Below are positions 34,876-38,175 of a stretch of DNA of 64,000 nt, piece after piece. This DNA is from Natronorubrum texcoconense (GTDB lineage: Archaea; Halobacteriota; Halobacteria; Halobacteriales; Natrialbaceae): the NCBI RefSeq assembly GCF_900100335.1, contig NZ_FNFE01000007.1, positions 62,001 through 126,000 of the forward strand, given 5' to 3'. Position numbers and translations under genes: made by a program. The notes beneath the pieces are model-generated. The model was given only the letters and a program-made list of their open reading frames with translations. It had not been told where the DNA came from and ran no database searches. The stretch's first letter is position 1; every line of letters begins with the position of its first letter.

Positions 34876-35223
34876 TCAGGCAGACGCCATCTCGCGACAG
34901 CTCTCGACACAGTTCGGGAGGATCTCCGCGCAGGCCTGACAGTGGTCGTGATCGTGCTGGTCGCACTCCTCGGCACACTCCTCACAGAGGTCCGCACAGA
35001 GTTCGCCCAGTTCCTCGTGGTAGCCCGAGCTACGAGCCATGAACCGCGCGTGTAGCGAAGCGATATCCGCCACGTCCCGACAGAGGCGGATACAGCGGGC
35101 CATTTCCTCACCTTCTCCCGCGCAGGCGTCGGCACACCACTCACAGACCTGGGCCGCCTCGAGGCAGTTGTCGATACACTCCTGCATGTGGTCGTCCGCG
35201 TGCTCGAGCTGTTGGAGCGCCAT
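34876..35223 (-). CDS. Four-helix-bundle copper-binding protein (DUF326)
   Basis: About 115 residues with 14 cysteines spaced on amphipathic helices: CIDNCLEAAQVCEWCADACAG, CIRLCRDVADIASLHARFM, LCADLCEECAEECDQHDHDHCQACAEIL. This is the Cys-lined core of DUF326/Csp-type copper-storage bundles, which hold many Cu(I) ions. The ATG at 35223 is favoured over 35238 because a palindrome overlapping a TATA-like GATGTAT lies about 29 bases upstream. It lies downstream of, and on the same strand as, the cupredoxin-dehydrogenase gene. Confidence 0.88.
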   Translation of the reverse strand: MALQQLEHADDHMQECIDNCLEAAQVCEWCADACAGEGEEMARCIRLCRDVADIASLHARFMARSSGYHEELGELCADLCEECAEECDQHDHDHCQACAEILPNCVESCREMASA

Positions 35224-35246
35224 CACGCAGTTCGGCACCGAAGAGA

Positions 35247-35517: not shown

Positions 35518-38175
35518 TCAGTCGTCGGCTTCCTGTGGCTCTGGGTCCGCTTCGTCGTCGGGTCCAGCTTCGTCCGCTTCAGGTTCGTCCGGCGCTTCGT
35601 CCTCCGGCATCTCGTCGTCCTCGTCTTCGGGCACCTCCTCGTCCTCTTCTGCAACGTCGTCCGGCGCTTCTTCCTCGGGATCGTCTTCGTCCATCGCTTC
35701 TTCGTCGACGACGAACGGGTCCTCGGGTTCGGGGATCTCCTCACCCTCTCCCGCCGGCACGATTCGGTAGATCTCGCCCGTCTCGGGGTCCGGTCGGAAG
35801 TCGGTGTTCGCGAGGACGTACAGTTCGCCGTTCTCGTCGCGTTCGACGCCGTAGACGTACCGGTTGAGCGACTCGTCATCGGCGCCCTCGAACTGTAGTT
35901 CCTCGAGTTCCCAGCGTTCGTCGACCTCGACGAGGTCGTCCTCGTCTTCGTCGTCTTCTAGCTCTTCATCTTCGTCCAGTTCTTCCTCCTCTTCTTCCTC
36001 GTCCAGTTCTTCTTCGTCTTCGTCCAGTTCTTCCTCCTCTTCTTCCTCGTCCAGTTCCGCATCGTCGTCCTCGTCGTCTTCGTCCTGAATCCAGCTGTCT
36101 TCCTCGGTCTCCTCAGCCTCGTCGTCCTCGAGTTCCTCCTCGTCTTCGTCGTCTTCTTCGTCTGCGACCTCGCCGTTCGGATCGACCGCCACTAACACTT
36201 CGCCGTCGGCGTCGGCGACACCCTGGCTGCTCCAGTTGCCGAAGACGAAGTTACCCTCGAGTTCGGGGATCGCTTCGCCCGCGTAGCGGTGGCCGCCGAC
36301 GACGACCGAGCTGTCGATGAACGCCTCGGAGATCCGCGTGTGCTGGTACTCCGCGATCGGATCGAGGAGCGGCTCACCGTCTCGAGCGTCGCTGACGTCG
36401 CCGTCGACCTCGTCGGGACACTCATCGGCCGGTTCGAGCGGCGAGTCCGGGCTGAAGCAGAACGAGCCCTCCTTGACGTTCCAGCTGTAGTTGCCGCCCT
36501 CTTCGACGGCGTAGACGGATTCGATGGCGTGCTGGCCGGCGTCGGAGACGAACACCTGGCCGTCGTCGTCGATCGACATTCCCCAGGGGTTCCGGAAGCC
36601 CCAGGCCCAGTAGGAGTCGATGTCTTCGTCCGAGTCGACGAGCGGATTGTCCTCGGGGATGCCGTACTCGCCGTACTCCTGATCCTCCTCCTCGTCGACG
36701 TCGATGCGGTGGATCCCGCCGTGTAAATTCTCTTCCGTATCTTGGCCGTTGCCGCCCTCGTTCTCGTCGTACCAGTCCTCGACGTGGCCCACGCCGATGT
36801 CGTGGACGTTGCCGCCGTCTCCGAGCGAGACGTAGAGGTAGCCGTCAGGGCCGAACGCGAGACGGCCGCCGTTGTGGTTGTCCTGTGGCTGCGGGATCTC
36901 CATGATCGTCCGCTCGGAGTCCGGATCGACGCCCGTCAGGTCCTCTTCGGCCTGGAACTCCGCGACGACCGCGGTGTGGTTGTAACCGAGTCCGTGGCGC
37001 TCCGGCGCGCTGTAGTGGACGTAGAACAACTGGTTCTCCTCGAACTCGGGGTGGAACGCGAGCCCCAGCAGGCCGCGCTCGTCGTAGCCGCCGAGTTCGC
37101 CGATGCCGAGGCTGACAAGCTGATCCTCGATGTCGAGGAAGAGGTCCATGTCGGCGGGCGTCATCGAGTCGGCATCCTCGACCTCTTCTTCCTCGTCTTC
37201 CGCCGGTTCGACCTGAATGGCGCCTACCATCGTCCCGGGGTGGACCTCACAGAGGTACCGATCCATCTCCTCGGTCGCCTCGAACTCGAGAGTCTGGCTC
37301 TCGCCGACCTCCTGGACGATCTCCGTTCGCTCGAGGATGTCGTCGTTGGCGTCGAGGATGACGACGTTGTGCGGATCGCCGTCGCCGTTCTCCCAGGTGA
37401 ACTGGTAGGTCTCGCCGGCGGTCAGCTCGAGCGTCGGGTTCTCCTCGCCGTCGATTTCTTCCGGCTCCATACCGAACCAGGCCGGGATGACGCCGTTGAA
37501 GACGAACTCCTGTGGGTCGTCCGGATCGTCCTCGACTTCCTCGTCTGGCTCCGGTTCGATCTCCTCGTCTGCGCCTTCCTCGACCTCCTCGTCCGGCTCC
37601 GGTTCGTCGACGTCGTCCTCGTCGTCGACTTCGACCGGCTCGTCGGGGTCATCGTCCTCCTGGATCAGACTACCCTCCTCGGGTCCGACAGGGTCGTCCT
37701 CGTCAGCTTCGGCTGGCTCACCTTCGGCGTCTTCCTCGTCGAGTTCGTCCTCGGCGGCTTCGTCCTCCCCGGTCGGTTCGTCTTCTACTTCATCCTCCTC
37801 GAGTTCCTCATCGACGTCCGCCGGCTCCTCGTCGAAGTTGGTGACGAACACCTGTCCAGTCTGCGTGACGACGAAGTGGTAGACCTCGCCGTCTACCTCG
37901 ACGTAATCGAGGTCGGTCGGCGCGGGCAAATTCTCCGCAACCAGTTGGAGGCCGACGGTCTCTCCCGCGGGAAACTCGCCGGCGACGGGGACGTCCTCGA
38001 AGTCGGCCGCTTCGGCCTCCTCCTCGTCTGGATCTTCCTCGTCCTGTGCGCTCGCGACGCCGCCGAGTGCGGCCGCCGACCCCGTCGCCGCGAGGGCGCG
38101 AAGGATCGTTCGTCGCGATTGACGTCCGATTCCGGTGCTCTGACTGTCGGGTATCGTCTCGTTCGGTTGGCTCAT
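35518..38175 (-). CDS. Tat-secreted PQQ-type sugar dehydrogenase with nested cupredoxin domain
   Basis: An 885-residue exported protein. SRRTILRALAATGSAAALGG (residues 20-39) is a Tat signal. The first strand set of a glucose/sorbosone-dehydrogenase propeller (~70-118) breaks off into an acidic linker (119-222). A cupredoxin domain follows (223-323) with type-1 copper ligands H269, C309, H312 and M316, then the propeller resumes: ERGLLGLAFHPEF (367-379) and DNHNGGRLAFGPDG with catalytic-type H434. A second acidic insertion (669-750) and tail (812-885) follow. It would oxidise a sugar or alcohol outside the cell and pass electrons through copper. PQQ dependence is inferred from the fold. Confidence 0.88.
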   Translation of the reverse strand: MSQPNETIPDSQSTGIGRQSRRTILRALAATGSAAALGGVASAQDEEDPDEEEAEAADFEDVPVAGEFPAGETVGLQLVAENLPAPTDLDYVEVDGEVYHFVVTQTGQVFVTNFDEEPADVDEELEEDEVEDEPTGEDEAAEDELDEEDAEGEPAEADEDDPVGPEEGSLIQEDDDPDEPVEVDDEDDVDEPEPDEEVEEGADEEIEPEPDEEVEDDPDDPQEFVFNGVIPAWFGMEPEEIDGEENPTLELTAGETYQFTWENGDGDPHNVVILDANDDILERTEIVQEVGESQTLEFEATEEMDRYLCEVHPGTMVGAIQVEPAEDEEEEVEDADSMTPADMDLFLDIEDQLVSLGIGELGGYDERGLLGLAFHPEFEENQLFYVHYSAPERHGLGYNHTAVVAEFQAEEDLTGVDPDSERTIMEIPQPQDNHNGGRLAFGPDGYLYVSLGDGGNVHDIGVGHVEDWYDENEGGNGQDTEENLHGGIHRIDVDEEEDQEYGEYGIPEDNPLVDSDEDIDSYWAWGFRNPWGMSIDDDGQVFVSDAGQHAIESVYAVEEGGNYSWNVKEGSFCFSPDSPLEPADECPDEVDGDVSDARDGEPLLDPIAEYQHTRISEAFIDSSVVVGGHRYAGEAIPELEGNFVFGNWSSQGVADADGEVLVAVDPNGEVADEEDDEDEEELEDDEAEETEEDSWIQDEDDEDDDAELDEEEEEEELDEDEEELDEEEEEEELDEDEELEDDEDEDDLVEVDERWELEELQFEGADDESLNRYVYGVERDENGELYVLANTDFRPDPETGEIYRIVPAGEGEEIPEPEDPFVVDEEAMDEDDPEEEAPDDVAEEDEEVPEDEDDEMPEDEAPDEPEADEAGPDDEADPEPQEADD
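35973..36057. repeat. In-gene direct repeat, 48-base period
   Basis: Two near-identical copies, starting at 35973 and 36021, each open CGTCCAGTTCTTCCTCC. They encode a duplicated 16-residue Glu/Asp block in the second acidic insertion of the dehydrogenase. The frame is kept. Confidence 0.8.

Follow-up and report, generated by a model that had tools for sequence, protein, structure and literature searches.

Sugar dehydrogenases built on a six-bladed propeller are known both with and without a built-in electron acceptor. In the fungal PQQ pyranose dehydrogenase CcPDH (AA8 cytochrome b, AA12 propeller and CBM1), an N-terminal cytochrome b is tethered to a related propeller (PMC4133262, PMC6881789). 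The sGDH and aldose sugar dehydrogenases (1cru, 3a9g, 2g8s) have no fused acceptor. In haloarchaea the one-electron carrier is halocyanin, the Natrialbales are often without complex III, and electron flow without this complex has been called unresolved in a haloarchaeal group (PMC8305020). Other enzymes fused to halocyanin or plastocyanin have been described (PMC8305020, PMC11237513), and in 2016 no characterised glucose/sorbosone dehydrogenase was known in any member of Halobacteria (PMC4766312). In the open-licence literature we found no paper on a GSDH-halocyanin fusion.

The open reading frame described here occupies exactly positions 35518-38175 on the minus strand of the window, which is the whole stretch of 64,000 nucleotides of Natronorubrum texcoconense DNA that was analysed; all features given below lie on the same strand. 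It encodes 885 amino acids (aa) plus a stop codon, and the product is predicted to be a Tat-exported, secreted, sugar-dehydrogenase-like protein of this salt-loving archaeon. The Tat-type signal region (aa 1-44, 38044..38175; RRTILRALAATGSAAALGG), which is alike in the orthologues, has no lipobox cysteine. The downstream neighbour (34876..35238) encodes a Cys/His-rich small protein with a DUF326 domain (PF03860, by Pfam), and copies 90-93% identical are found near the gene in genomes G001, G003 and G004, in differing orientation. A conserved operon was rejected, as synteny was found only with the closest genome.

Foldseek searches with the predicted propeller placed HHIP first, followed by sGDH and the aldose dehydrogenases. 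HHIP, a non-enzymatic member, is the closest solved relative in both sequence and fold; unlike the window protein, it has not kept the Arg-Asn pair and has no copper domain. With the sGDH and aldose sugar dehydrogenases, to which L101 of the same genome belongs, the protein shares the propeller fold, the active-site His and the Arg-Asn pair, whereas their C-terminal R-x-R is missing. CcPDH is likewise a six-bladed sugar-dehydrogenase propeller with a built-in acceptor, but it is distant in the fold search (6jt5, E 4e-6) and its acceptor is an N-terminal cytochrome b instead of a nested blue-copper domain. In the window protein Pfam gave matches to GSDH, Copper-bind and NHL alone, and no AA8 cytochrome b domain; it is not a member of the AA12/CcPDH quinohemoproteins and may work in a similar way. 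The copper domain, when searched alone, had as its best match the cupredoxin domain of the Hyphomicrobium three-domain copper nitrite reductase (2dv6). There too a cupredoxin is fused to its enzyme, but that enzyme is a copper nitrite reductase and not a propeller, and the cupredoxin is not nested. Haloarchaeal proteins with an N-terminal copper domain joined to GSDH (L012, and L023 of Halopiger djelfimassiliensis) share the same copper domain, propeller, Tat export and short tether to a D strand. Unlike in the window protein, their copper domain precedes all propeller strands and the blade-1 loop has about 11 aa.

Position of the copper domain in the propeller

Pfam matched Copper-bind at aa 248-323 (E 5e-6) and GSDH (PF07995) at aa 366-653 (E 4e-28; 99 bits against a cut-off of 25). 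The GSDH match spans profile positions 48-283 only, the counterpart of the profile's first 47 positions being displaced upstream of the copper domain. From the N-terminal side, the chain consists of the displaced strands D6, A1, B1 and C1 (aa 69-112, 37840..37971), an acidic linker (aa 113-222, 37510..37839), the type-1 copper, halocyanin-like domain (PF00127; aa 223-325, 37201..37509), a short tether (aa 326-343, 37147..37200) and the propeller from strand D1 to C5 (PF07995 and AlphaFold; aa 344-665, 36181..37146). An acidic insert (aa 666-752, 35920..36180), delimited by a D/E scan and orthologue comparison, separates this part from the last strands D5, A6, B6 and C6 (aa 753-808, 35752..35919; AlphaFold strand assignment), and an acidic C-terminal tail (aa 809-885, 35521..35751), delimited in the same way, ends the protein. 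The copper domain interrupts blade 1 of a six-bladed GSDH propeller after strand C and before strand D, in a loop with a median length of 11 residues in relatives without a nested domain (118 proteins). Its ligands H269 (37369..37371) and C309, H312 and M316 (37228..37251) are invariant across 18 aligned copper domains, and Pfam, the alignment, AlphaFold (mean pLDDT 88) and Foldseek all point to a His-Cys-His-Met type-1 site in a cupredoxin fold.

Three profiles were run on 102 loci, a set that was later enlarged: SA covers the first propeller strands, CU the copper domain and PROP the remaining propeller. An SA profile built without the nested proteins still matches the strands N-terminal to CU in every one of them, with E-values of 6.7e-8 for the window protein and 5.6e-10 at best, and chance similarity of the displaced strands was therefore rejected. 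A sequencing or frame artefact was rejected because the order SA-CU-PROP recurs in 11 distinct proteins.

The AlphaFold model, calculated from 67 sequences of which three cover SA, has pLDDT values of 89-96 for SA, 76-87 for most of CU and 80-97 for most of the propeller, with the acidic stretches (the first linker included) mostly below 50. Its strands can be assigned, in our own numbering of the blades, to six blades of four (D6 70-83, A1 86-94, B1 97-104, C1 108-112, D1 344-348, and so on to C6 800-807). These 24 strands, with the predicted closure by the N-terminal strand and the two termini meeting at blade 6, place the protein in the PF07995 superfamily. In the model, the C-D hairpin of blade 1 houses the copper domain, and that of blade 5 the second acidic insert. 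The independent profile, the model and the relatives confirm that a type-1 copper domain is nested inside the propeller, as the earlier note had proposed from the sequence. The residues it named (H269, C309, H312, M316 and H434) are all as stated there, and the propeller, which it saw resuming at about residue 340, does so with strand D1 at 344-348.

Relatives and the origin of the nested order

The search for the insertion across the family recovered the order SA-CU-PROP in the window protein, L002, L003, L004, L005, L007, L021 (Natrialba hulunbeirensis), L022 (Halopiger djelfimassiliensis), L143, L144 and L147; L145 and L146 duplicate L021 and L022 and were left out of the 11. The order CU-SA-PROP is found in about 46 haloarchaeal proteins, and most other relatives, those from bacteria among them, lack CU. 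The earlier note would have given up the insertion had homologues carried the domain solely at a terminus; as both orders exist, the insertion stands. Nested forms occur in 10 of 125 Natrialbaceae genomes and in one MAG of another family, and by an order-level search they are rare across the order. At L103 and L104 (genomes G001 and G004) nested and N-terminal paralogues are adjacent, in divergent orientation.

Other relatives have further arrangements. In genome G023 (L118:194-2779 and L119:1-2424) two copper domains and apparent dockerin-type repeats stand C-terminal to a GSDH propeller. A Candidatus Hydrogenedentes locus (L093:355-2562) encodes, besides GSDH, a PKD domain and at the N-terminus a cupredoxin-like stretch (AHPF ... 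YRCSVHTSTM) that is not called as a copper domain by Pfam. L054 and L055 are two contigs of equal length (92,608 bases) that carry the same match and are filed under two organisms, Amaricoccus solimangrovi and Pontibacter mangrovi; assembly cross-contamination is the probable cause. Cytochrome c fusions in bacterial relatives were considered as redox support and rejected, as no CxxCH was found inside any relative checked.

The tree of the propellers groups the nested proteins in a single clade (support 99/90), with L148 as its sister (100/100), L026 next (97/95) and the other N-terminal forms outside. L148 has an N-terminal copper domain and, in the blade-1 loop, a 109-aa insert of 65% D/E that holds no copper domain. 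By its sequence and its place in the tree, L148 is a living intermediate between the terminal and the nested order, and since this sister combines an N-terminal CU with an acidic insert in the same loop, the polarity is from terminal to nested. Because its insert is present without a copper domain, the acidic insert in blade 1 most simply arose before the copper domain entered the loop. The N-terminal position of the copper domain is ancestral; the blade-1 loop would first have acquired an acidic insert of simple sequence, which L148 still has, after which a copper domain came to lie in the insert and the N-terminal one was lost.

Such a move could also consist of the insertion of a second copy and the loss of the first, because the copper-domain tree does not group the nested domain with that of L148. 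In that tree the N-terminal domains form a clade that leaves out the nested ones (98/93), and constraining the nested domains with the domain of L148 gives an AU p of 0.064. Both values would suit a history without any move, in which the acidic loop acquired a separate halocyanin-type domain and the N-terminal copper domain disappeared. The copper-domain tree has 103 columns only, however, and in a larger sample the split of free halocyanins from propeller-borne domains is weakly supported. We give this history slightly less than an even chance; it concerns origin only and is compatible with the functional explanation preferred below. That a second copper domain can join a loop while the first stays is suggested by L026/L110 of genome G031 (QS_1_68_20). 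There the L008/L026 gene is cut off by the end of contig C24 inside a Gly-Asp repeat. Contig C9 (L110) opens with the same repeat (73 identical bases, with a 34-base exact overlap of the ends), after which come a second copper domain, 16 further aa and strand D5. Apparently these are one gene across an assembly gap, with one copper domain at the N-terminus and a second nested in the C-D loop of blade 5, the loop that carries an acidic insert in the window protein.

Acidic stretches and tethers

A six-frame scan for runs of at least 60% D/E over 60 residues found exactly three in the 64 kb, all in this gene. They measure 106, 130 and 77 aa and have 58-62% D/E overall, so the three hyperacidic stretches of the earlier note are present and unique in the window, but are not nearly all Asp/Glu as it described them. 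Fourteen consecutive Asp/Glu codons occur at two other sites of the genome, neither in this gene.

The earlier note suggested that these stretches could bind metal or cations, or extend the molecule. Compared with the closest orthologue, CU and PROP are 96-97% identical, and the alignment has 27 gap columns in the first linker and 32 in the blade-5 insert. Across orthologues the acidic stretches range over 31-112 and 22-95 aa, with D/E as low as 32%; those of Halopiger come down to 22-36 aa and 32-39% D/E. Gly/Asp repeats replace them in L026/L110 and Gly/Ser in L046, and in the AlphaFold model they are disordered. The presence of three runs of about 60% D/E, unique in 64 kb, might favour the binding of metal or divalent cations as a conserved function, but such variation in length and acidity argues against a conserved metal site, and we regard it as very improbable. 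A spacer role fits the same observations, and the stretches are probably spacers.

The tether from the end of CU has 13-30 aa to D6 in the N-terminal forms (median 21, n=46), 18-48 aa to D1 in the nested forms (median 22, n=11) and 16 aa to D5 in the blade-5 insertion; on the N-side, the linker of the nested proteins has 31-112 aa. The three attachment points are, in the model, the starts of D strands in the neighbouring blades 5, 6 and 1 and lie on one face, and in every arrangement the copper domain is predicted to be followed by a short tether that leads to one of these strands. As a tentative reading that we hold to be unlikely on present evidence, copper domains could be a movable electron-acceptor module that hops among the termini and the C-D loops of blades 1, 5 and 6, always on the same face and with a short tether. 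Acidic or Gly-Asp simple-sequence linkers would be its landing sites, and the enzyme would feed the copper pool directly in archaea without complex III.

Active site, cofactor and proposed function

Among 52 aligned relatives, H434 (36874..36876), the equivalent of the catalytic His of sGDH (PMC6881789), is conserved in all. R528 and N529 (36589..36594), equivalents of the PQQ-contacting Arg-Asn, are kept in 51 and 52, respectively, and E552 in 52. The catalytic His and the Arg-Asn of a canonical PQQ sugar dehydrogenase (sGDH/ASD) are thus present. The cysteines C573 and C586 (36418..36459) are kept in all 52 propellers, bacterial ones included, as a possible disulfide. The C-terminal R-x-R that holds PQQ is found in five solved relatives; here it reads R772-x-V774, and the two positions are Arg in 5 and 0 of the 52 aligned relatives. 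A pqqC model that matches two control bacteria (G355 and G359) found no pqqC in any of the 125 Natrialbaceae genomes, and the window protein's own genome has one canonical GSDH with R-x-R, L101.

The earlier note placed the acceptor beside the PQQ pocket of an otherwise standard enzyme. In the predicted structure H434 falls between strands D2 and A3, and R528-N529 between strands D3 and A4. The C-D and D-A loops of an antiparallel meander lie on opposite faces, and the copper domain, entering through a C-D hairpin, should therefore be attached on the face opposite the catalytic loops; its placement beside the pocket is not borne out. The claim of PQQ itself is weakened: H434 is intact and R528 and N529 are kept, but the missing R-x-R arginines, the absence of pqqC from the family and HHIP as the nearest solved fold make PQQ doubtful as the cofactor. 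Without pqqC in the family, the cofactor would be either scavenged PQQ or a different compound. A canonical PQQ sugar dehydrogenase with its copper acceptor held beside the pocket could draw on the conserved His and Arg-Asn, on the PF07995 match and on PQQ enzymes in which the second C-terminal Arg is absent (PMC6881789). CcPDH is PQQ-dependent although several bacterial PQQ residues are absent (PMC4133262, PMC6881789). Given the near loss of the R-x-R pair, the entry on the opposite face and the lack of pqqC in Natrialbaceae, we consider that explanation improbable.

The reading that we prefer, with a probability of roughly 0.6, is a secreted quinone-type dehydrogenase with a tethered, built-in electron acceptor on an HHIP/GSDH-type six-bladed propeller. 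Both domains are recognised by Pfam and by fold, the copper ligands are invariant, and H434, R528 and N529 essentially so; the cofactor, substrate, electron path and mobility of the copper domain are what we infer. With a quinone as its bound cofactor, the propeller probably oxidises a small external substrate of the sugar or the aldehyde type; the type-1 copper domain would take up the electrons singly and pass them to free halocyanin or to a terminal oxidase at the cell surface. A short tether of about 20 residues would anchor the copper domain where an outer strand begins, on the face away from the catalytic loops, while the long disordered acidic linker on its other side closes the chain. 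Because of this asymmetry and the opposite face, the copper domain may be a mobile tethered carrier and not a fixed neighbour of the pocket; since it is attached opposite the catalytic loops, direct transfer would require the tether to swing.

The protein could instead be no enzyme but an HHIP-like binding propeller whose accessory domain binds copper, serving surface binding or copper storage or buffering. This would agree with HHIP as the best solved relative by sequence and fold, with the loss of the C-terminal PQQ arginines, with the absence of pqqC, and with the DUF326 protein that adjoins the gene. It is nonetheless unlikely, as R528 and N529, which the alignment shows to be lost in HHIP, are kept together with H434 in 51-52 of 52 relatives, and the copper domain has the full set of type-1 ligands, which marks a redox and not a storage site.

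The tethered dehydrogenase would deliver electrons at the level of copper. PF00033, the cytochrome b of complex III, has no match in the organism's own genome and is absent from 101 of 125 family genomes. A link between nesting and loss of complex III was rejected: all 10 nested family genomes are without this cytochrome b, but so are the 101 of 125 overall (Fisher p 0.21, kinship ignored). The missing complex III is compatible with direct electron entry at copper and is not evidence for it. The family provides a clear case in which a terminal arrangement of a redox domain has become a nested one, with an intermediate that still exists, and suggests a rule for where such a domain can go, on the same face and with the same short tether. 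If the copper domain accepts the electrons of the propeller, the protein would offer these haloarchaea a complex-III-independent route into the halocyanin pool.
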